9,352 nucleotides of DNA from the NCBI GenBank assembly GCA_937915335.1, contig CALDLZ010000010.1, positions 1 through 9,352 of the forward strand, read 5' to 3'. How positions within the stretch are numbered: the first letter of the stretch is position 1; each line of letters starts with the position of its first letter. This DNA comes from an uncultured Faecalibacterium sp. GTDB lineage: Bacteria; Bacillota; Clostridia; Oscillospirales; Ruminococcaceae. The position numbers and the translations under genes are program-made. Positions 1 through 9,352 of this stretch are shown here, in pieces. Under the pieces are notes generated by a model, which did no database searches, was not told the DNA's origin, and saw nothing but the letters and a program-made list of their open reading frames with translations.

Positions 1-1282
1 TCTTGATGTAGCCGGTGTTGGCCTTTGCCAGTTCCTTGACCTCGTCCATGGTGGGGGCGGACCAGGGGCGCTTCTCACGGTTGGCGAGAGCCCGCTCGTA
101 CAGATCCTTGCGCAGGGCCTCCAGCTGGGCCGGGATGGCGGTCTCCAGCTCGTCCAGGCTCACGAAGGTCTTTTCGCGGGTATCACGGCGGACCAGCACG
201 CACTGGTTCTTTTCCAGATCCTTGGGGCCGATCTCCAGGCGCAGGGGCACGCCCTTCATCTCCCACTGGGAGAACTTCCAGCCGGGGGCGTTGTCGCTGT
301 CGTCCAACTTGACACGGGCGTACTTGCTGATCTTCTCAGCCAGCTCGGCAGCCTTCTCGGAGACACCGGGCTTGTGGGCGGCGATGGGCACGACCACGAC
401 CTGGATGGGAGCCACTGCCGGGGGTAGGATCAGGCCGTCATCATCACCGTGGGTCATAATGATGGCACCCACCAGACGGGTGGAAGCACCCCAGCTGGTC
501 TGGAACGGGTGATGCAGCTGGTTGTCACGGCCGGTGAAGGTCACGTCATAAGCCTTGCTGAACTTATCACCGAAATAATGGCTGGTGCCGCTCTGCAGGG
601 CCTTGCCGTCCTTCATCATCGCCTCGATGGTGTAGGTGGCCTCGGCGCCGGCAAACTTTTCCTTATCGGTCTTGCGGCCCTTGACAACAGGGATCGCCAG
701 ATCCTGCTCGCAGACATCCGCGTAGCAGTTCAGCTGCTGCTGAGTCTCAGCCTCAGCCTCGGCGGCAGTCTCGTGGATGGTGTGGCCTTCCTGCCACCAG
801 AACTCACGGCTGCGCAGGAAGGGGCGGGTGGTCTTTTCCCAGCGCACCACGCTGCACCACTGGTTGTACTTCATGGGCAGCTCGCGGTAGCTGTGCAGAA
901 CACGGGACCAGTGGTCGCAGAACATGGTCTCACTGGTGGGACGCACAGCCAGGCGCTCTTCCAGCTTATCGGAACCGCCCATCGTGACCCACGCCACCTC
1001 CGGCGCGAAGCCATTGACCAGCTCGCCTTCCTTCTGCAGCAGGCTCTCGGGGATCAGCACGGGCATTGCCACGTTCTCGTGGCCGGTGGCCTTGAACCGG
1101 GCATCCATGTCCTTCTGGATCAGCTCCCAGATGGCCTGACCATAGGGGCGCAGGATGATGAAGCCCTTGACACTGGAGTACTCCACCAGCTCTGCCTTGA
1201 CGCAGATATCGGTGTACCACTGTGCAAAGTTTTCTTCCTGGCTGGTGATCGCCTGCACAAGCTTCTTGTTGTCTTTTGCCAT
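1..1282 (-). CDS. proS: Prolyl-tRNA synthetase, archaeal/eukaryotic type, 3'-truncated by window edge
   Basis: Cytoplasmic class II aminoacyl-tRNA synthetase that charges tRNA-Pro with proline using ATP. Reading the complement from the ATG at 1282 gives 427 residues open to the window edge; family members of this short form are about 475-480 aa, so roughly 50 C-terminal residues are missing. Motif 1 lies near residues 41-52 ([13 protein letters not shown]), followed by RPTSE at 114-118. Motif 2 spans about 147-167 and includes RWEKTTRP and a QEGHT segment. Motif 3 is near 263-288 (TSWGAST, then [12 protein letters not shown]). The anticodon-binding domain starts near residue 293. No YbaK-like editing domain is inserted between motifs 2 and 3, and that absence together with the motif 2 wording marks the archaeal/eukaryotic type. 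The start is fixed by AGGAGG at 1293-1298, 10 nt upstream. The gene lies downstream of acpP but beyond a strong terminator, and I see no convincing separate promoter. Confidence 0.97.
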
Positions 1283-1302
1283 TTTGTTATATCCTCCTAA
1301 GC

Positions 1303-1339
1303 CGTGCGCCAAACGTCCAAATTTCAACCGTTCCGCACG
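1303..1339 (-). promoter_or_regulatory. Possible small hairpin in the proS leader
   Basis: The proS leader contains an inverted repeat, CGTGCG at 1303-1308 against CGCACG at 1334-1339. A second 4-bp pair inside it, AACG at 1312-1315 against CGTT at 1329-1332, surrounds a loop of 13 nt. The hairpin ends 4 nt upstream of the AGGAGG site. It is far too short to be a T-box, and no T-box-like or NGGTGG-type sequence was recognised. It may be chance; its position beside the ribosome-binding site is the only reason to list it. Confidence 0.25.
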
Positions 1340-1345
1340 AGCTCA

Positions 1346-1403
1346 TATTAAAAGCCCCGCCGCAGCGCCGCCGTGTGCAGCGCCGGAATGCGGGGCCTTT
1401 TTG
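1346..1403 (-). terminator. Hairpin terminator downstream of acpP
   Basis: GCCCCGC at 1354-1360 pairs with GCGGGGC at 1390-1396. On the minus strand the stem is followed by TTTTAATA, a U-rich tail that starts 63 nt past the acpP stop codon. On the plus strand it is followed by CTTTTT, so the element is symmetric. The roughly 29-nt interior is GC-rich and can fold further. It most likely ends acpP transcripts and insulates proS, or lets part of them read through into proS. Confidence 0.75.
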
Positions 1404-1416
1404 CATCCTTCCGGGA

Positions 1417-1650
1417 TCAGCCCTTGTGGCTGTCCACAAAGTCCACCACGTCGCCCACGGTGCGCAGATTCTCGATGGCATCATCCGGCACCTCAATGCC
1501 GAACTCATCCTCGAGCGTCATCACCATGTCCACGATATCCAGGCTGTCGGCCTCAAAATCGCTCATAATGTCGCTCTCCATCGTGATCTTAGCGGGGTCA
1601 ATATCCAGCTGCTCCGCCAGCAGTGCACGGATCTTTTCAAAAGTATCCAT
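1417..1650 (-). CDS. acpP: Acyl carrier protein
   Basis: Small acidic cytoplasmic carrier of growing fatty acyl chains in type II fatty acid synthesis. The 77-residue product has the family's normal length and four-helix pattern. The phosphopantetheine attachment motif is DSL at residues 35-37, with Ser36 as the modified residue, followed by the acidic recognition helix (DIVDMVMTLEDEF). The start at 1650 is set by AGGAGA at 1659-1664 with 8-nt spacing. A near-consensus promoter lies at 1731-1759, giving a leader of roughly 75 nt. No other fab genes are in view, so it appears to be transcribed alone, diverging from dapF. Dedicated carriers for other pathways (for example polyketide or D-alanine carriers) look similar, but the sequence fits the housekeeping form well. 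Confidence 0.95.
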   Translation of the reverse strand: MDTFEKIRALLAEQLDIDPAKITMESDIMSDFEADSLDIVDMVMTLEDEFGIEVPDDAIENLRTVGDVVDFVDSHKG

Positions 1651-1710
1651 CGTCGCGGTCTCCTTTTGTCAATGATTCTTTCTTGTCAGCCCTGTGCCGC
1701 TCTCTCCGGC

Positions 1711-1826
1711 GCACAAAGCACTCTTTACTTTTTATATCCCATAGGCCGTATCTTGTCAAGCCCTGTTTTGCATTCCACCCCGGTCTGAGCAGAAAAATCC
1801 GATGAAAATTGCACAAAGCCCTCTTT
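1711..1826. repeat. 16-bp near-identical direct repeat in the acpP-dapF divergent region
   Basis: GCACAAAGCACTCTTT at 1711-1726 and GCACAAAGCCCTCTTT at 1811-1826 match at 15 of 16 positions and are exactly 100 bp apart. Each copy contains a small dyad, AAAG-N4-CTTT. The left copy covers the expected start point of the acpP transcript, just downstream of its -10 box. The right copy ends 5 bp before the dapF -35 box. A shared regulator site is possible, but chance or a remnant duplication cannot be excluded. Confidence 0.45.
1731..1759 (-). promoter_or_regulatory. Promoter of acpP
   Basis: On the minus strand the -35 box is TTGACA (1754-1759, exact consensus) and the -10 box is TATAAA (1731-1736, one mismatch), with a 17-bp spacer. 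Transcription would begin near 1724, about 75 nt before the acpP start codon. This is a strong housekeeping sigma-A type promoter, as expected for acyl carrier protein. Confidence 0.85.
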
Positions 1827-1831
1827 TTTGC

Positions 1832-1860
1832 TTGACAGAACACCGTTTGGTTCCCATAAT
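1832..1860 (+). promoter_or_regulatory. Promoter of the dapF-dapL operon
   Basis: The -35 box TTGACA (1832-1837, exact consensus) and -10 box CATAAT (1855-1860, one mismatch) are separated by 17 bp. Transcription would start near 1867, giving a leader of under 40 nt before the dapF ATG at 1904. That is too short for a lysine riboswitch. The promoter diverges from that of acpP; the two -35 boxes are 72 bp apart. Confidence 0.85.
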
Positions 1861-1903
1861 TATAAGAGGTAGTTTTTCAAAACGAACCAACCGAGGTATT
1901 ACC

Positions 1904-2743
1904 ATGAAATTGTCATTTACCAAAATGCAGGGCTGTGCCAACGATTACATCTATCTGGACTGCCGCGTGTCCGGCGTACCGGAGAACATTGCGGCGCTTG
2001 CACGGCGGCTTTCGGCCCGGCACTTTTCCATCGGTGCCGACGGCATCATCTGCATCTGCGCCCCCGTGACTCGTGGTGCGGACGGCCGGATGCGTATTTT
2101 CAACGCGGACGGCAGCGAGGCCCAGATGTGCGGCAACGGCGTGCGCTGTGTAGCCGAGTGGCTCTACACCCACGGGGTGGAAAAGCCCGTCCTGACCATC
2201 GACACCAACAGCGGTGTCAAGCGCATCACCCGTCAGGGTGAACAGCTGTGGCAGGTGGAAATGGGCGCTTACAGCACCCTGCCCGCCGACCTGCCCGCCC
2301 TGAACATGGGTGAGGGTCCGCTGGTGGGCAAGCCGCTCACCGTGGAAGGAAAAAACTGGAACGTCACCTGCATCAGCGTGGGCAACCCCCACTGTGTGAC
2401 CGTGGTGGAGGATGTGGACAGCCTGAAGCTGGAGGAGATCGGCCCGGCATTCGAGCACCACGCCAATTTTCCCGAGCGCATCAACACCGAGTTCGTGCAG
2501 GTAGTGGATGCCACCCACCTGAAAATGCGGGTATGGGAGCGCGGCAGCGGCGAGACCTGGGCCTGCGGCACCGGCACCTGTGCCACGGTGGCGGCCCTGA
2601 CCGAGCTGGGAATCTGCCCTGTCGGGCAGGATATCCATGTGCAGCTCCGGGGTGGTGAGCTGGTCATCCGGGTACTGCCCGGCAGCCAGCTGCTGATGAC
2701 CGGCGGCGCTGTCACGGTGTATGAAGGTATCACAGAAGTTTAA
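1904..2743 (+). CDS. dapF: Diaminopimelate epimerase
   Basis: Cytoplasmic, cofactor-independent epimerase that converts LL-diaminopimelate to meso-diaminopimelate, the precursor of lysine and of peptidoglycan cross-links. The 279-residue product matches the usual length of about 275. Both catalytic cysteines are visible in their signatures: Cys76 in MCGNG (75-79) and Cys221 in ACGTGTC (220-226). The substrate-binding segments NADGSE (67-72), GNPHC (160-164) and ERGSGET (212-218) are also present. An in-frame ATG exists at 1802, but it lies upstream of the promoter. The chosen ATG follows GAGGT at 1893-1897 with 6-nt spacing and gives the family N-terminus (FTKMQGCANDY). First gene of an operon with dapL, 18 nt downstream, whose product makes the substrate of this enzyme. 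Confidence 0.97.
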   Translation: MKLSFTKMQGCANDYIYLDCRVSGVPENIAALARRLSARHFSIGADGIICICAPVTRGADGRMRIFNADGSEAQMCGNGVRCVAEWLYTHGVEKPVLTIDTNSGVKRITRQGEQLWQVEMGAYSTLPADLPALNMGEGPLVGKPLTVEGKNWNVTCISVGNPHCVTVVEDVDSLKLEEIGPAFEHHANFPERINTEFVQVVDATHLKMRVWERGSGETWACGTGTCATVAALTELGICPVGQDIHVQLRGGELVIRVLPGSQLLMTGGAVTVYEGITEV

Positions 2744-2761
2744 GAAAGAGGGATAACTACT

Positions 2762-3949
2762 ATGAAAATGAATCATCATTATGGCGAGCTGAAGGCCAGT
2801 TACCTGTTCGTGGATATCGCCCACAAGGTGGCCGCCTATCAGGAGGCACACCCTGAGAAGGAGATCATCCGCCTGGGCATCGGTGACGTGACCCAGCCCC
2901 TGGCAAAGTGCGTGGTCAAGGCCATGCAGGATGCCGCCGCTGAGATGGGCACCAAGGAGGGCTTCCACGGTTACGGCCCCGAACAGGGCTACCCCTTCCT
3001 GAAACAGGCCATCCAGGGCTACTATGCAGGCCGCGGCACTCAGCTGGCTGAGGACGAGATCTTTATCTCCGATGGTGCCAAGAGCGATCTGGCCAACGTG
3101 CTGGGCCTGTTCGATGTGGATAACACCGTGCTGGTTCCGGACCCCGTTTACCCCACCTATGTGGACGACAATGTGACCGATGGCCGTAAGATCATCTATG
3201 GCCGCACCAGCCAGGAGAATGGCTTCCTGGGTATGCCCGATGAGAACGTGAAGGCTGACATCATCTACATCTGCAGCCCCAACAACCCCACCGGTGCCGC
3301 CTACACCCGTGAGCAGCTCAAGGCCTGGGTGGACTACGCCAAGAAGAACAACGCCGTCATCCTGTACGATGCCGCCTATGAGTGCTTCATCTCCGACCCC
3401 GCCCTGGCCCGCAGCATCTTTGAGGTGGAGGGTGCCCGCGAGTGCGCCATTGAGATCTGCTCCTTCTCCAAGATCGCAGGCTTCACCGGCACCCGCTGCG
3501 GCTACACCATCGTTCCCCACGAGCTGGAGCGCGAGGGTATGAACCTGAACAAGCTGTGGCTGCGCCGCCAGACCACCAAGTTCAACGGCGTGCCCTATGT
3601 TGTCCAGCGCGCCGCCGCCGCCGTGTTCACTGAGAGCGGCATGGCTGAGATCCAGGCCAACCTGGACTACTACCGCAAGAACGCCAAGGTCATCGCCGAC
3701 GCTCTGGACGAGTGCGGCGTGTGGTACTGCGGCGGCAAGAACAGCCCCTACATCTGGCTGCGCTGCCCCGGCAACATGAAGAGCTGGGAGTTCTTCGACT
3801 GGCTGCTGGAGAACTGCGGCGTCGTCGGCACCCCGGGCGTGGGCTTCGGTGAGTGTGGCGAGGGCTATTTCCGTCTGACCGCCTTCGGCGATGCCGAAAA
3901 GACCAAGGTCGCCGCCGAGCGCATCAAGACTGCCATTAAGGCGCTGTAA
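2762..3949 (+). CDS. dapL: LL-diaminopimelate aminotransferase
   Basis: Fold-type I PLP-dependent aminotransferase. It converts tetrahydrodipicolinate directly to LL-diaminopimelate with glutamate as amino donor, bypassing the succinylated or acetylated intermediates of the DapD/C/E route. The 395-residue product is close to the family's roughly 400 aa. Visible landmarks are GIGDVTQPL (39-47), the SDGAKSD stretch (103-109), SPNNPTG with Asn175 (172-178), Asp203 in YDAAY, the Schiff-base Lys237 in SFSKIAGFTGTR (234-245) and the carboxylate-binding Arg371 in FRLTAF. The start has AGAGG 10 nt upstream; the second Met at codon 3 is a less likely alternative. It follows dapF by 18 nt and ends just before a bidirectional terminator. 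The pairing with DapF supports the DAP assignment over a generic aspartate-family aminotransferase. Confidence 0.96.
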   Translation: MKMNHHYGELKASYLFVDIAHKVAAYQEAHPEKEIIRLGIGDVTQPLAKCVVKAMQDAAAEMGTKEGFHGYGPEQGYPFLKQAIQGYYAGRGTQLAEDEIFISDGAKSDLANVLGLFDVDNTVLVPDPVYPTYVDDNVTDGRKIIYGRTSQENGFLGMPDENVKADIIYICSPNNPTGAAYTREQLKAWVDYAKKNNAVILYDAAYECFISDPALARSIFEVEGARECAIEICSFSKIAGFTGTRCGYTIVPHELEREGMNLNKLWLRRQTTKFNGVPYVVQRAAAAVFTESGMAEIQANLDYYRKNAKVIADALDECGVWYCGGKNSPYIWLRCPGNMKSWEFFDWLLENCGVVGTPGVGFGECGEGYFRLTAFGDAEKTKVAAERIKTAIKAL

Positions 3950-3964
3950 AAATTGGACGCAAAA

Positions 3965-3992
3965 AGACCCGCTCTCGCAAGCGGGTCTTTTT
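3965..3992. terminator. Bidirectional terminator between dapL and the aldose epimerase gene
   Basis: A perfect 9-bp stem (AGACCCGCT at 3965-3973 against its complement at 3980-3988) with a 6-nt loop is flanked by AAAA on the left and TTTT on the right. It can therefore stop transcription from both sides. It begins 15 nt after the dapL stop codon and lies 9 nt past the end of the convergent epimerase gene. Confidence 0.92.
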
Positions 3993-4001
3993 CTTTGCAT
4001 T

Positions 4002-4889
4002 TTATCGTTCAAACGTCGTGCTGAGGGTGGTCTCCCAGGTCTGGCCGGGGGCGAGGCAGGCGGCGGCAGCGCGCTGGCTCCACTCCTGGGTGTCGGACTG
4101 GGCACCGGGCAGGGAGTGCCAGGGCTCGATGCAGACAAAGCGCACAGGCTTTGCCGGGGCCGACCAGATGAGGGTATAGGGGTAGCCTTCCACGTTGCAG
4201 ATGACACCACGGCCGGTATCCTTCTCGTAGATGCCCAGCGTGTGGCTGCGCAGACCAGTCATGCAGAAGCTGTCATTCTCGAACAGGTCGTCGGTCAGGG
4301 GAATGGTCTGGTCGTTCTTCCACCGGTAGTAGCACTTACCACTGAGCAAACCAGCCGGGCGGGCATCCAGCACCATGGGGCTCTCGGGCTGGTCGAAGCG
4401 GAACTCGTAATCGGTGGTGGTATGGTTCTTGTCAAAGGGGATGTTGAATGCCGGGTGGTAGCCGATGCCGAACCGCAGCTCCTCGGCGGCATCGGCAGGG
4501 TTCGTGACGGTCAGGGTGTGGTGGACAGTCTTGCCCTCCAGCTTGAAAGTGCTGGTCAGGACAAAATCAAAGGGGAAGCGCTCTGCCTTGATTTTTTCAT
4601 CCGAACGCAGTTCCAGCTGGATGGTGTCCCCTTCCGCCTTGAGCAGGGTGTGCTCCACGTCCCGGGCAAAGCCGTGCTGGCCGCCGGTGTAGGTCTTGCC
4701 GTTGTGGGTAAAGGTGCCGCCGGGCAGCTTGCCTGTCCAGGGGAAGAGAATGGGGGCGTGGCGCTTCCAGATGGCCGGGTCTGCCTGCCAGAGCATCTCC
4801 TGCCCGGCGGCATTTTTCAGGCTGACGGCTTCAGCACCGTGGGTATCCACGGTCAGGGTCAGAAATTCATTGTGAATGGTTGCCTGCAT
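4002..4889 (-). CDS. Aldose 1-epimerase family protein (LacX-like)
   Basis: Predicted cytoplasmic mutarotase that interconverts alpha and beta anomers of an aldose or a phosphorylated sugar. The 295-residue product has the LacX-type opening: GAEAVSLKN (18-26), then LWQADPAIWKRHAPILFP (33-50). Probable catalytic and ligand residues are His72 (GGQHGFAR), His145 (GIGYHPAFN) and the general base Glu255 (CIEPWH). Beta-strand-rich composition without signal peptide or membrane segment fits the galactose-mutarotase fold. AGGAGA at 4898-4903 with 8-nt spacing fixes the start, and the upstream dehydrogenase gene ends 15 nt before it, so the two are probably co-transcribed. It is the last gene of the minus-strand block before the terminator. 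No sugar transporter or galactokinase is nearby, so the true substrate is unknown; galM-type galactose mutarotase and YeaD-like hexose-6-phosphate epimerase are alternatives. Confidence 0.88.
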   Translation of the reverse strand: MQATIHNEFLTLTVDTHGAEAVSLKNAAGQEMLWQADPAIWKRHAPILFPWTGKLPGGTFTHNGKTYTGGQHGFARDVEHTLLKAEGDTIQLELRSDEKIKAERFPFDFVLTSTFKLEGKTVHHTLTVTNPADAAEELRFGIGYHPAFNIPFDKNHTTTDYEFRFDQPESPMVLDARPAGLLSGKCYYRWKNDQTIPLTDDLFENDSFCMTGLRSHTLGIYEKDTGRGVICNVEGYPYTLIWSAPAKPVRFVCIEPWHSLPGAQSDTQEWSQRAAAACLAPGQTWETTLSTTFER

Positions 4890-4904
4890 GGTTCATATCT
4901 CCTT

Positions 4905-5867
4905 TTATTTGTTGACGATGTGCTCGCCGTTTCCTTCCAGATAGGTGCGCAGGTTCCGGGTGGTGATGTCCATCAGGTTCTGCAATGCTTCCCTGGTCGT
5001 CCACGCAATGTGCGGCGTAAGGATGGCGAGGGGCTCGGCACGCAGGGGACTCTCCTTGGGCAGAGGCTCGGTGACAAAGGCATCCGCCCCGTAGAAACCC
5101 AGCTGCCCGCTGTGGAGGGCCGCCGCAACAGCATCCTCATCCACCAGCGCGCCCCGGGCGGTGTTCAGCAGGATGGCCCCGGGCTTCATCTTGGCCAGCG
5201 CCTCGGCGTTGACGATGCCCCGGGTCTGGGGCGTGGCCGGACAGTGCAGACTGAGGATATCGCACCGCTGCAGCAGCGTGTCGTAATCCACAAATTCCAC
5301 CCCGTCGGCGGCGTACTCGGGCCGGACGGTACGGGTGCAGACCAGCACCTTCATGCCAAAGGCTTTGGCGATGCGGGCCGACTGCCGCCCGATGCTGCCG
5401 TAGCCATAGATGCCGAAGGTCTTGCCGTAGAGCTCCACCTGGGGCAGCAGACCGATCTCCTGGGGGATATCCAACTGCCAGCACCCCTGCTTGACGGCAC
5501 GGTTGTAGCGCTCGGCGCACTGGCAGATGGCCAGCAGCAGACTGAAAGTCATCTGGGCCACGCTGTAAGTGGAATAGCCCGGCACGTTTGCCACGGCGAC
5601 CCCGTGGCGGCGGCAGGCCTCCAGATCCAGATTATCGGTGCCCGTGGCAATGATCCCCACCCATTTCAGGTTGGGGCACTGCTGTAAAACAGCTTCGTCA
5701 ATGCGGCATTTGTTCAGCAGAACAAGATCCGCATCCCCGATGCGGGGGGCGATCTCTTCGTAAGCAGTGCGGACGTAGCTTGTGGTGTCCGGTACCAGCG
5801 CCTTCACACCCGACCAGTCCAGGTCGCCCTCCTCCATAACATAGCTTTCCAGAATAACAGCTTTCAT
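4905..5867 (-). CDS. D-2-hydroxyacid dehydrogenase (glycerate dehydrogenase/hydroxypyruvate reductase-like)
   Basis: NAD(P)-dependent oxidoreductase of the D-isomer-specific 2-hydroxyacid dehydrogenase family, closest in feel to HprA-type hydroxypyruvate reductases. 320 residues from the chosen start, the normal family length. The Rossmann nucleotide-binding turn is GYGSIG (155-160). The catalytic triad is Arg238 (NTARGALVD), Glu267 (TEPLP) and His286 (TPHIAW). The family segment YSTYSVAQMTFSLLLA (98-113) is present. An ATG at 5894 would add nine residues but has no reason to be preferred. The ATG at 5867 follows GGAGG at 5874-5878 with 9-nt spacing to the start, and that site lies inside the last codons of the sirtuin gene, which stops one base before this gene begins. 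The tight junction suggests translational coupling. After the second Rossmann strand the sequence is CTRT with no acidic residue, which leaves NADP use open. The substrate is not determined. Confidence 0.93.
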   Translation of the reverse strand: MKAVILESYVMEEGDLDWSGVKALVPDTTSYVRTAYEEIAPRIGDADLVLLNKCRIDEAVLQQCPNLKWVGIIATGTDNLDLEACRRHGVAVANVPGYSTYSVAQMTFSLLLAICQCAERYNRAVKQGCWQLDIPQEIGLLPQVELYGKTFGIYGYGSIGRQSARIAKAFGMKVLVCTRTVRPEYAADGVEFVDYDTLLQRCDILSLHCPATPQTRGIVNAEALAKMKPGAILLNTARGALVDEDAVAAALHSGQLGFYGADAFVTEPLPKESPLRAEPLAILTPHIAWTTREALQNLMDITTRNLRTYLEGNGEHIVNK

Positions 5868-5868
5868 C

Positions 5869-6594
5869 TCAATCCTCCAGCAAAACGTCCTCACTCAGCA
5901 CCTGGCCGATGGGCTTTGCGATGCACAGGTCAGCCTGCTCGTCGGCTCCGGTGGGCTGCATATTGATAACCACCAGATGGCGGCCCCGGAAGTACCGGAT
6001 CAACCCTGCCGCCGGGTAGACCACCAGGCTGGTGCCGCCGATGATCAGGGTATCAGCCTTGCGGATGGCCGACACGGCCCCGGAAAGCACGCCCTCGTCC
6101 AGCCCCTCTTCGTAGAGGACAACATCCGGCTTGACGATGCCGCCGCACTTGGGGCAGCGGGGCACACCGGTGCTGTTGGCGATGAAATCCACATCGTAGA
6201 AGGCACCGCACTTGACGCAATAGTTGCGCAGGGTGCTGCCGTGGAGCTCATAGACATTTTTTGAGCCTGCCGCCTGATGCAACCCGTCGATGTTCTGGGT
6301 AACAATGGCCTTCAGCTTGCCCTCCCGTTCCAGCTTTGCCAGCCGCAGATGGGCGGCGTTGGGCTTTGCCCCCTTCACGATGAGCTTATCCCGGTAGAAC
6401 CGGTAAAACTCCTCGGGGTTGCGCTCCCAGAAGGTGTGGCTGAGGATGGTCTCGGGCGGGTAATCATACTTCTGGTGGTACAGGCCGTCCACACTGCGGA
6501 AGTCGGGGATGCCGCTTTCGGTGGAGACACCCGCGCCGCCAAAAAAGACGATGTTATTGCTCTCGGCAATGATTTTTTCCAGTGCAGGAACCAT
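5869..6594 (-). CDS. cobB: NAD-dependent protein deacylase (sirtuin, Sir2 family)
   Basis: Removes acetyl or other acyl groups from protein lysines, consuming NAD+ and releasing nicotinamide and O-acyl-ADP-ribose. The 241-residue product has all core features: GAGVSTESGIPDFRS (20-34), TQNIDGLH (99-106), catalytic His118 in ELHGS, zinc ligands Cys126/Cys129 and Cys147/Cys150 in two CxxC pairs, and GTSL (187-190) for the ribose. Tyr64 is at the place of the class III Tyr, but the partner Arg position holds Tyr67, so a dedicated desuccinylase/demalonylase role is not indicated. The start at 6594 has AGGAA at 6606-6610 with a long 11-nt spacing, and that site lies inside an inverted repeat. A candidate extended -10 promoter lies just upstream. 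The next gene starts after one base. Neighbours handling NAD(P) suggest a cofactor-linked cluster. Confidence 0.96.
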   Translation of the reverse strand: MVPALEKIIAESNNIVFFGGAGVSTESGIPDFRSVDGLYHQKYDYPPETILSHTFWERNPEEFYRFYRDKLIVKGAKPNAAHLRLAKLEREGKLKAIVTQNIDGLHQAAGSKNVYELHGSTLRNYCVKCGAFYDVDFIANSTGVPRCPKCGGIVKPDVVLYEEGLDEGVLSGAVSAIRKADTLIIGGTSLVVYPAAGLIRYFRGRHLVVINMQPTGADEQADLCIAKPIGQVLSEDVLLED

Positions 6595-6683
6595 AAAAAG
6601 AACGCTTCCTTTCCGGCAGAAAATTTGTGTTTTGGATAAATCCAGTATAACACAAATCCAGCGGAAAGGAAGCTTTTCTTTTT
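6595..6683. repeat. Long nested inverted repeat upstream of the sirtuin gene
   Basis: Three nested dyads share nearly one centre (about 6639). The outer 12-bp arms are GCTTCCTTTCCG (6604-6615) and its perfect complement (6662-6673), extended by AAAAAGAA (6595-6602) against 6676-6683 after a small internal loop. The middle 9-bp arms are ATTTGTGTT (6623-6631) and AACACAAAT (6649-6657). The inner arms are TGGAT (6633-6637) and ATCCA (6640-6644). On the minus strand the structure ends in a T-rich run that abuts the sirtuin ATG, so it can act as the nnrD terminator. Its 3' arm also carries the sirtuin ribosome-binding site. It fills most of the 109-nt gap between the two genes. Confidence 0.8.
6644..6652 (-). 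promoter_or_regulatory. Candidate extended -10 promoter for the sirtuin gene
   Basis: On the minus strand TGTTATACT fits an extended -10 element (TGn followed by TATACT). The -35 position 17 bp upstream, at 6667-6672, reads CTTCCT and is poor, which is tolerated when an extended -10 is present. Transcription would start near 6637, inside the loop of the nested inverted repeat, so this transcript would lack the 5' arms and leave the ribosome-binding site free. Confidence 0.5.
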
Positions 6684-6703: not shown

Positions 6704-7597
6704 TCAGCGACCATTTTCAGCAAACAACGCTCCCAGTGCGTCGAACAGATCATGGGGGAGCATTCCGGCTTCTCCATGCAGGGCGGCGGCGCGGTCGGCA
6801 GCGGCACCGTGGAGCCAGACCGCGCAGACAGCGGCTTCAAAGGCGGGCAGGCCGCAGGCCAGCAGGGCGCTGGTCATCCCTGACAGCACATCCCCGCTGC
6901 CGCCCCGGGAAAGCCCCGGATTACCGGTAGGATTGACGGCACAGCGGCCCTCCGGGGAAGCAATAACGGTGTGCGCCCCTTTCAGCACCACCACGGCATT
7001 CCACGCCTTGGCAAAGTGCAGGGCGGCACCCTCCCGGTCGGCGTTGATCTCTGCTGCGGAAAGGGCGGTCAGCCGTGCCATCTCGCCGGGGTGAGGTGTC
7101 AAAATCAGTTCACCCTGCGGATGAACCAGCTTTCCGGCCTGGAGCAGATCAGCGGCGGCGTTCAGGCCGTCGGCATCCAGCACCGCACTGCCCGAAAAGC
7201 TAGGCAGGAGCCCTTCCACCAGCGCCCGTGTCTCGGCGGCACGGGCCGCGCTCTGGGCCGTGTAGCCCAGCCCGGGGCCCACCAGCAGAACGGTGGCCTT
7301 CTGTCGTCGGATGCGGTCGAGATTTTCCGGTGAAATGCCGCTCTCAGCCCCCGGTGCGCAGGGGCAGAGACAGCACTCGGGCAGGCGGGCGGCCACAGCG
7401 GCCAGTACCGGCTCCACGCTGGCCAGCGTGACGATGCCGGCCCCGGTGCGCAGGGCTCCTTCCACAGCCAGCACCGCCGCGCCCCGGTAGGATGCACTGC
7501 CCGCCACTGCCAGCACCGAGCCGAAGGTACCTTTGTGGGCATCCCGGGGGCGGGGGGCGATATTTTGCCAGACGTATTCTGAGGTTGTACTGAACAT
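6704..7597 (-). CDS. nnrD: ADP-dependent NAD(P)H-hydrate dehydratase
   Basis: Metabolite-repair enzyme of the ribokinase-like fold. It dehydrates the S form of hydrated NADH or NADPH back to the working cofactor, coupled to ADP hydrolysis. The 297-residue product corresponds to the C-terminal half of bifunctional YjeF proteins; the N-terminal NAD(P)HX epimerase (NnrE) domain is absent and no nnrE is in the window. Landmarks are the GSASYRGAAVLA segment (33-44), GPGLG (107-111), LDADGLN (140-146), TPHPGEMARL (167-176), VLKGAHTVI (204-212) and the nucleotide-site NPGLSRGGSGDVLSG (226-240) with catalytic Asp236. The usual GGTGD appears here as GGSGD. The start at 7597 has AAGGAG at 7607-7612 with 9-nt spacing. 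It lies 27 nt after the nuclease-fusion gene, so it is probably in the same transcript, and it is followed by a hairpin that may end or attenuate that transcript. Confidence 0.95.
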   Translation of the reverse strand: MFSTTSEYVWQNIAPRPRDAHKGTFGSVLAVAGSASYRGAAVLAVEGALRTGAGIVTLASVEPVLAAVAARLPECCLCPCAPGAESGISPENLDRIRRQKATVLLVGPGLGYTAQSAARAAETRALVEGLLPSFSGSAVLDADGLNAAADLLQAGKLVHPQGELILTPHPGEMARLTALSAAEINADREGAALHFAKAWNAVVVLKGAHTVIASPEGRCAVNPTGNPGLSRGGSGDVLSGMTSALLACGLPAFEAAVCAVWLHGAAADRAAALHGEAGMLPHDLFDALGALFAENGR

Positions 7598-7624: not shown

Positions 7625-9352
7625 TTACCCTTCTCCCTGCAGATATTTCCGTATCTCTTTCTCCGCCTCCATTACCTCCTCATGGAACATGCGGGCGGAG
7701 ACGCGGAGGGCACCATGACCGAGGATGATGACCTGCTCCATACCGTCGGAGGTTGCCACACGGACACGGCGGCCCTTGCCGATCTCATGGGTGACACGCT
7801 CAATGAACATATCGGCGGTCTCGGCTTCCTTTGTATATACAACGTGGATATTATGATATTGTTCAATACTGCCCGGACTGCCAGGCACACGGTAGGCATC
7901 AAACACGAGGATGAGCACACACTTCTTGAAGCCCTGATAGTTGCAGAGGATATCCATCAGCTTGTGACGGGCGGCTTCCAGACTCTCTTTGGAGAGGGCG
8001 TTCAGCTCGTCCCAGGCGAAGATGATGTTATAGCCGTCCACCAGCAAATACTCCGGGGCGATCTCCCACTGCTCGGCGTTGAAATCCGGACGCTCCCGTT
8101 TCTGTGTGGGCCGAAACGCCGCCAACGGGTCCCGCTTGATGGGCCCATAGGTCTGCTCAAAGATTTTCAGCAGCTCGGCATCCTCTTCCAAAGTGGCACG
8201 GTAGGCCGCTATCCGGCGCGGACGGTTCTGTACCTCTTCCTCGGGCTTTACGGTCTTACCCCAGCCGCTGTCCACATGCATGTGACTGCGCACCTGCTCC
8301 CAAGGCACCACGAACCCGGCACCATGGGCACAGAACACCGAATCCGCCGGGTTGTCGAGGTCGTGCTCCGGCTCATAGCCCACGGCAGCGATGACCTCCG
8401 CCGCATTGTGACAGGGACGATAACCATCCAGTGAGAGGTTCAGGTGTCCCCTGCCCCGGGTGTAGCCCACCACCTCCATGGGATAGCTCCGCATCTCGGA
8501 AGCCGGGGCCGTGCCGGTAAGCAGTGTGGTCTGGCCATCCGGGGCGGTCTCGGGCGGGTCAAAGCTGCCGCCCATGTTCTGGATATCGTTCATGGCACGG
8601 CCTACGTTGTCAGAGGGAAGCTCCAGCCGGAAGGCGTACCAGGGCTCCAGCAGTTGCGTCTTGTGGATCTGGTTTGCCATCATCAGGCCCTGCCGGACGG
8701 CGCGGTAGGTCGCCTGCCGGAAGTCGCCGCCCTCGGTGTGCTTGAGGTGGGCACGGCCCGCAATGAGGGTGATCTTCACATCGGTCAGCGGGGCTCCGAT
8801 GAGCACACCCAGATGCTGCTTTTCCTCGAGGTGGGTCAGCACCAGCCGCTGCCAGTTCTTGTCCAGCACCTCTTCCCGGCAATCAGCCGCAAACTGCATT
8901 CCGCTGCCCCGGGGCAGCGGTTCCAGCTTTAAATGCACCTCGGCATAGTGGCGCAGGGGCTCGTAGTGGCCCACGCCCTCGATGGCCTCGGTGATGGTCT
9001 CCTTATATAAAATGCCGCCGGGGCCGAAGCTGACCTCCAGCCCGTAGCGCTCGGCCAGCAGGCTTTTCAGCACCTCCAGCTGGATCTCACCCATCAGCTG
9101 AACATGGATCTCTCCCAGTGTTTCGTTCCAGACCACGTGGAGCTGGGGTTCCTCCTCTTCCAGCCGGTGGAGCTTGCCCAGGGCGGCGTGGACATCAGCC
9201 CCATCGGGCAGCAGCACCTGATAGCTGAGCACGGGTTCCAGCACGGGCAGGTCGCTGTCCCGTTCGGCTCCCAGTCCCTCGCCGGGATGGGCTTTGGTCA
9301 GTCCCGTGACGGCGCACACCTGCCCGGGGAAGACCTCCTCGGCCAGCGTGTA
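7625..9352 (-). CDS. EF-G/TetM-like translational GTPase fused to a YacP/Rae1-like NYN nuclease domain, 5'-truncated by window edge
   Basis: The frame is open to the window edge, giving 575 visible residues; the GTPase domain and most of domain II lie outside. A GTG at 9319 is internal, not a start. Residues 1-40 are the end of domain II. Domain III is about 42-121. Domain IV is about 122-235, with the PLPRGSGMQF strand and the loop KHTEGGDFRQATY. Domain V is about 236-315 and ends in YTRGRGHLNLSLDGY, as in EF-G and TetM. A linker follows (about 316-430) with CAHGAGF and HMH. The C-terminal NYN domain (about 434-575) has LVDGYN with Asp439, VFDAY with Asp485, TKEAETAD with Glu511 and Asp514, and ATSDGMEQ with Asp536, all closely matching YacP/Rae1. 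Known for the families: TetM and EF-G bind the ribosomal A-site side, and Rae1 cleaves mRNA there. Inferred: an mRNA-cutting ribosome rescue or quality-control factor. It probably leads the operon with nnrD 27 nt downstream. Automated labels may call it tetracycline resistance. Confidence 0.9.
   Translation of the reverse strand, partial: YTLAEEVFPGQVCAVTGLTKAHPGEGLGAERDSDLPVLEPVLSYQVLLPDGADVHAALGKLHRLEEEEPQLHVVWNETLGEIHVQLMGEIQLEVLKSLLAERYGLEVSFGPGGILYKETITEAIEGVGHYEPLRHYAEVHLKLEPLPRGSGMQFAADCREEVLDKNWQRLVLTHLEEKQHLGVLIGAPLTDVKITLIAGRAHLKHTEGGDFRQATYRAVRQGLMMANQIHKTQLLEPWYAFRLELPSDNVGRAMNDIQNMGGSFDPPETAPDGQTTLLTGTAPASEMRSYPMEVVGYTRGRGHLNLSLDGYRPCHNAAEVIAAVGYEPEHDLDNPADSVFCAHGAGFVVPWEQVRSHMHVDSGWGKTVKPEEEVQNRPRRIAAYRATLEEDAELLKIFEQTYGPIKRDPLAAFRPTQKRERPDFNAEQWEIAPEYLLVDGYNIIFAWDELNALSKESLEAARHKLMDILCNYQGFKKCVLILVFDAYRVPGSPGSIEQYHNIHVVYTKEAETADMFIERVTHEIGKGRRVRVATSDGMEQVIILGHGALRVSARMFHEEVMEAEKEIRKYLQGEG

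Follow-up and report, generated by a model that had tools for sequence, protein, structure and literature searches.

The stretch of DNA analysed here (hereafter the window; 9,352 nucleotides), which its gene neighbours place in Faecalibacterium, carries on its minus strand the 3' two thirds of a gene encoding an EF-G-like GTPase fused to a NYN_YacP nuclease (7625..9352). The frame runs uninterrupted for 575 codons, its 5' end lies off the window edge with the gene start beyond 9352, and the closest named locus, from F. hattorii (L001), is 94% identical. Along the protein, EF-G domains III (PF14492, residues 39-110; 9023..9238), IV (PF03764, residues 114-226; 8675..9013) and V (PF00679, residues 233-317; 8402..8656) are followed by the conserved C-terminal tail of the GTPase subfamily (..DSVFCAHGAGFVVPWEQVRSHMH; 8273..8401), about where NYN-less members stop, then by a variable linker (8051..8272) and the Rae1-like NYN_YacP domain (residues 435-575; 7628..8050), all on the minus strand. 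The tip of domain IV (loop III, GRAHLKHTEGGDFR, residues 199-212; 8717..8758, minus strand) holds a subfamily signature in place of the SPVSTPADF of TetM. An earlier note on this DNA had described a single polypeptide joining EF-G/TetM domains II (its end) to V with a complete NYN domain, a description borne out by the open frame and the Pfam domains. Twenty-seven bases downstream of the fusion begins a gene for NAD(P)H-hydrate dehydratase (6704-7597, minus strand), a family that directly follows the fusion in 6 of 75 loci, each from Faecalibacterium. The rest of the window (2-6594) contains ordinary-looking genes encoding a class II tRNA synthetase (which we take to be of the prolyl type), diaminopimelate epimerase, a class I aminotransferase, an aldose epimerase, a 2-hydroxyacid dehydrogenase and a Sir2 protein, and no Rfam element was found in the window at gathering score. 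A conserved operon partner was rejected, as no neighbour family occurred in more than 9 of 75 loci when up to three ORFs of at least 100 aa were considered on each side, and a role as an anti-phage defence protein was likewise rejected after PADLOC gave no match for L001.

Full-length relatives of the fusion are about 865 aa long with an intact GTPase domain, and five Pfam domains including GTP_EFTU were common to all 120 matches listed of 7,993 database matches. The P-loop AHVD[AS]GKT was present in 75 of 80 fetched loci, the exceptions being L025, which reads AHVDVGKT, and four loci that start 3' of the P-loop. Furthermore, the G1, G2, G3 (DTPGH) and G4 (NKxD) residues, including His82 of DTPGH, were invariant in the alignment of 53 fusion relatives (53/53). 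The GTPase motifs that the earlier note had expected upstream are thus intact in full-length relatives; judged on the same relatives, neither of the two faults it had named as fatal, a missing GTPase domain and a frameshift artefact joining two genes, holds, the latter being ruled out by the five-domain layout common to the 120 listed matches.

The nuclease domain of the window scored 167.5 bits against the NYN_YacP profile (curated cut-off, 24.6), in agreement with the YacP/Rae1 assignment made from the letters alone. Structure comparison of the full-length model covered approximately residues 1-620 and was dominated by EF-G chains (the 50 Foldseek matches listed were EF-G and its kin; TetM was not among them, which is no argument against kinship), so the NYN domain was folded separately. 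Folded alone, the fused nuclease is predicted to adopt the Rae1 fold, with four aspartates aligned to those of Rae1: Asp439 (Rae1 Asp7; 8036..8038), Asp485 (Asp53; 7898..7900), Asp514 (Asp81; 7811..7813) and Asp536 (Asp104; 7745..7747), all encoded on the minus strand and each conserved in 87/87 fusions and 8/8 free-standing rows. A failure of these acidic residues to superpose on the Rae1 active site, which the earlier note had listed as a way to be wrong, was accordingly not what the predicted fold and alignment gave. Rae1 of B. subtilis is an A-site endoribonuclease (PMC6613710).

We further compared the GTPase with Tet proteins and EF-G. The best NCBIfam match of the fusion was tet_protect, and public records label relatives as members of the TetM/TetW/TetO/TetS family, as would be expected if the fusion were a tetracycline-resistance ribosomal protection protein that had gained an RNase domain, a reading found in public annotation and proposed by Atkinson 2015 (PMC4342817). 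However, L001 and L032 scored 381 and 429 bits against the Tet model NF012153 (cut-off, 775; Tet(M) control, 874), and 246.6 and 297.6 bits against the EF-G model TIGR00484 (cut-off, 659.4), these cut-offs being tuned to known members so that a score below them is compatible with function. TetM Pro509, at the tip of domain IV, overlaps the tetracycline site (PMC7456112, PMC8161019); the corresponding position was Lys in 54/54 fusions, within an invariant H-x-KHTEGGDFR tip. With a looser pattern, the tip motif was recovered in 87 of 92 members of a wider set, the five misses being deep branches, and in four of these five (those in which the stretch could be read) the TetM loop was absent as well. 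In a quick tree of 65 rows with long branches and no bootstrap, fusions and NYN-less orthologues formed one clade (SH-aLRT 100) that was separate from EF-G, TetM, a TetM/W-type protein and two further Tet-like proteins; here the Tet family was represented by Tet(M) and one TetM/W-type protein alone, with Otr(A) left out. Membership of the Tet resistance family was rejected on the combination of sub-cut-off score, Lys for Pro509 and separate clade, and by sequence comparison the GTPase is a subfamily distinct from both Tet and EF-G.

The resistance reading also draws some support from phenotypes, since F. prausnitzii L2-6, CNCM I-4541 and I-4546 lie above the 2 mg/L tetracycline breakpoint, and the genome of CNCM I-4541, with a MIC of 8 mg/L, carries the fusion (L006) (PMC5492426). 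Indirect evidence against it comes from the same study, in which 8 of 13 F. prausnitzii strains had a tetracycline MIC of <=0.2 mg/L and 10 of 13 were under the 2 mg/L breakpoint (PMC5492426), although 29 of 31 genomes in our sample of the genus hold the NYN domain. Calf isolates, in another study, are mostly resistant (PMC4281123). The genomic setting is also at odds with resistance: matches over at least 80% of the query occurred in 2 of 72,556 plasmid records, of which the one inspected carries part of secA, and one carrier genome (G006) holds a TetM/W-type protein besides the fusion. Plasmid copies are thus scarce, and mobile element cargo was rejected. With Lys for Pro509 in 54/54 fusions, 381 and 429 bits where 775 is the cut-off, and low MICs in 8/13 strains, the drug-clearing half of the activity suggested in the earlier note was not borne out, and we consider the resistance reading as a whole very improbable. 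A Monoglobus record labelled plasmid 12 (L100) bears secA and spore-coat genes and may be chromosomal DNA. L. salivarius carries the GTPase unfused; on the megaplasmid of strain UCC118 (L101 2053-4571), this NYN-less GTPase is annotated as tetracycline resistance, and its neighbours are a putative gene of metal homeostasis and rpsN, which encodes ribosomal protein S14.

We then surveyed how the fused and free-standing nucleases are distributed among genomes. All 19 genomes picked for holding a fusion locus had one NYN_YacP match each, the fused copy. In a phylum sample of 299 genomes, 155 had a NYN_YacP match; 18 fused proteins were among the matches listed, each the sole NYN_YacP match of its genome, and the one genome with two matches had both free-standing. 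Searching the same 299 genomes for the GTPase (E 1e-80 or better) returned 22 genomes, namely the 18 with the fusion, two with an NYN-less orthologue and a free-standing yacP (G213, G238) and two with more distant proteins only (G041, G248). Of 127 genomes from the order of Faecalibacterium, 37 had a NYN_YacP match, which was fused in 36 and cut by a contig end in the 37th (G422); seven others carried the NYN-less GTPase without any nuclease, and an eighth (G366) gave a partial match to this GTPase. The remaining 90 genomes of this order had no NYN_YacP match, and many of them seem able to do without Rae1-type cleavage. For the order of Blautia, a match was present in 103 of 126 genomes (39 fused, 63 free-standing and one with a broken frame, G477), the NYN-less orthologue and a free-standing yacP occurred together in 10/126, and approximately 52 of the 63 genomes with free-standing rae1 were without the GTPase at the threshold used. 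The fusion gene of G477 (L145 1401-3929) is split into two frames by an assembly error or as a pseudogene. Within the genus Faecalibacterium, 29 of 31 genomes had the NYN domain, in frames of at least 859 aa in 27, of 746 aa in one and as a fragment of 101 aa in one. Among these samples, which overlap in some genomes, none had intact copies of both the fused and the free-standing kind, and the fused protein was the only intact Rae1-type protein found in its carriers. The earlier note had suspected that fusion-bearing genomes are without a separate yacP, which was right in the samples taken (19/19, the 18 listed, 36/37 and the 39 of the Blautia order), and the fusion, about whose spread it had asked, proved to be real, widespread and conserved.

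In B. subtilis, sigH adjoins rae1. We measured the rlmB-to-sigH interval for 30 carriers of the fusion (G006, G001 and 28 from the 39 of the Blautia order) and for 24 of the 63 free-standing controls, with the identities of SigH, RlmB and CysS confirmed by NCBIfam; a further neighbour, presumably mrnC, was without an NCBIfam match. Among carriers, 21/30 had sigH in the fetched flank, with a gap of -10 to 265 bases and no rae1 in 19 and a relic in two (gaps of 249 and 522 bases), whereas 17/24 controls had sigH in the flank, with a gap of 543 to 765 bases and an intact rae1 of 498-519 bases in 17/17. Some of the rae1 queries were drawn from the same control genomes, and relics weaker than E 0.01 would escape this search. 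The two relics were wrecked second matches in fusion genomes G487 and G460, both between rlmB and sigH (L140, about 6110-6623; L141, 6277-6526); one is a pseudogene interrupted by stops and a deletion, whereas of the other a 5' stub is left. A third small extra match belonged to a free-standing genome (G551). Nine carriers and seven controls lay outside the scoring for want of sigH in the flank; of these controls, two had rae1 beside rlmB and five did not, although in two of the latter the sequence available was too short. That rae1 was not seen beside rlmB in 5/24 control genomes indicates that the gene can also move without fusing. In two of the controls (G469, G501), the free-standing rae1 is on another contig than rlmB, and its clade is nested among fused NYN domains, as either a donor line or a re-isolated gene. 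Together, these data show that the fusion stands in for free-standing rae1 in the carriers examined, and most simply explained, rae1 disappeared from its original site after the fusion had taken over its work.

The order of events was further examined in two trees. The NYN tree comprised 68 rows, without three fusions that had no motif, and its bootstrap had not settled. In it, fused domains did not form one clade (four changes), but a single clade was not rejected (p-AU 0.241). In the GTPase tree, 40 fusions grouped with one NYN-less row, from L. salivarius, a pattern that could equal one gain and one loss. From both trees, a single fusion event appears the likeliest origin, although it is not proven. 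Nineteen NYN-less proteins stop at the conserved tail that precedes the linker in fusions, or no more than about a dozen residues from it; since this is about where the linker begins, the nuclease was added to the end of a pre-existing protein.

In 77 of 80 loci, the linker itself spans 77 to 132 residues between the Trp of the tail and the NYN motif (approximately 70-125 from the end of the tail). In the model of L001 it is predicted to be mostly disordered (pLDDT mostly <60), and the full-length model (pTM 0.49) had no fixed docking of the NYN domain. Within it lies a conserved element, E-L-x-x-I-F-x-x-T-x-G (ELLKIFEQTYG in the window, residues 393-403; 8144..8176, minus strand), in which E393 and I397 were present in 87/87 fusions and the other positions in 81 to 84. 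This element was found neither in free-standing Rae1 nor in the tails of the 19 NYN-less GTPases, and a contact site on the ribosome or the GTPase is a fair guess for its role. The other end of the nuclease has changed too. A C-terminal tail past the nuclease core was present in 31/31 free-standing proteins and absent in 43/92 fusions, including all 11 Faecalibacterium loci (11/11), and its E-x-hydrophobic-basic-basic motif was matched by 25/31 free-standing proteins vs 3/92 fusions with the same pattern; of these three, L064 alone looks in register by eye and two are off register. The window protein has no basic tail corresponding to the W164-R165-R166 region of B. subtilis. In B. subtilis, W164-R165-R166 is the equivalent of the motif, R166P arose in a selection for suppressors and was judged a loss-of-function change (PMC6613710), and the title of PDB 5mq9 names a W164L mutant of Rae1. 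We infer that the tail may dock Rae1 on the ribosome and that in the fusion the GTPase would take over docking. However, four of the six motif-less free-standing proteins (L150, L156, L158, L160) fall among fused NYN domains in the tree, so tail decay may partly predate, or be unrelated to, the fusion.

Alternatively, with its tail lost, the fused nuclease could have given up the Rae1-like action on the ribosome. A further reading is that the nuclease acts on tRNA or rRNA, by processing or by cleavage of stalled-ribosome RNA, and not on A-site mRNA; most fusions miss the tail, or the motif in it, that marks the A-site enzyme, and PMC4342817 states that the domain was proposed to mature rRNA and tRNA. 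Because the fused domain has a predicted Rae1 fold with the residues of Rae1, and stands in for rae1 in the genome, we consider action on tRNA or rRNA quite improbable.

On the combined evidence we lean towards an endonuclease that its GTPase half would deliver to stalled ribosomes, where it would cleave mRNA in the A site. In such a cycle, the GTP form would bind the factor site of a ribosome with an empty or blocked A site, domain IV would probe the decoding centre through its His-x-Lys-His-Thr tip and would be withdrawn upon GTP hydrolysis, and the NYN domain, on its linker of approximately 70-125 residues, would enter the vacated A site and cut the codon there, as B. subtilis Rae1 does; the tether would substitute for the basic C-terminal tail kept by most free Rae1 proteins. 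As the A site could not hold domain IV and the NYN domain together, the two acts would have to be sequential. Another arrangement, in which the GTPase serves only to tether the nuclease to ribosomes and so increase its concentration there, without GTP hydrolysis gating the cut, would fit the long variable linker with no predicted docking, and tail loss would fit a new anchor. It nevertheless seems unlikely, for the invariance of the G1-G4 residues with His82 of DTPGH (53/53) indicates that GTP use is probably under selection, and the conserved linker element suggests more than a passive string. Both parts also occur apart, as an NYN-less orthologue alongside a free-standing yacP (10/126 genomes; G213, G238). 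The GTPase without a nuclease (7/127, L. salivarius) and rae1 without the GTPase (approximately 52/63) indicate that neither part needs the other everywhere, and they count against a pure delivery story.

In its fullest form, the delivered-endonuclease reading would be a GTP-gated A-site cutter, in which an EF-G-like arm senses the stuck ribosome, hydrolysis pulls the arm out and the nuclease swings in, so that a single polypeptide, which has taken the place of free Rae1 in many species of the Faecalibacterium and Blautia orders, would combine sensing, clearing and cleavage; this is possible but, in our estimate, doubtful. If true, many gut Clostridia would hold a rescue factor that cuts mRNA as a single protein and could time the cut by its GTPase cycle, and the fusion may offer a handle on how Rae1 enters the A site, as the presumed delivery factor comes attached. 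It would also correct a database label, given that the tetracycline-resistance annotation borne by some relatives may swell resistome counts in gut metagenomes.

Compared with Tet(M)/Tet(O)-type proteins, with which it has an EF-G-like five-domain architecture and a GTPase in common, the fusion lies below the family cut-off, is without Pro509, falls in a separate clade, has its own C-terminal tail and bears an added nuclease. EF-G differs in turn: the fusion has the G1-G4 motifs, but L001 reaches 247 bits where the cut-off is 659, and two carriers (G006 and G011) keep an EF-G of their own elsewhere in the genome. Unlike Rae1/YacP of B. subtilis (PDB 5mq8/5mq9), the nuclease is fused to a GTPase and is not sited between rlmB and sigH, and its basic C-terminal tail is missing, or the double-basic end degenerate, in nearly all fusions. 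The earlier note knew of no functional description of such a fusion, and this stood, as no functional study was found in the open literature searched, but the fusion itself was already in print: Atkinson 2015 (PMC4342817) gives the same architecture (clostridial Tet-NYN) one sentence, in ten species, read as possible drug resistance. Those proteins are very probably of the same kind as ours, and the passages concerned are silent on rae1 replacement, relics, tail loss and a test against Tet. What we describe is a real and conserved architecture, known before, for which a new reading of its evolution and function is put forward, that of a chromosomal GTPase-Rae1 fusion that displaced free Rae1.
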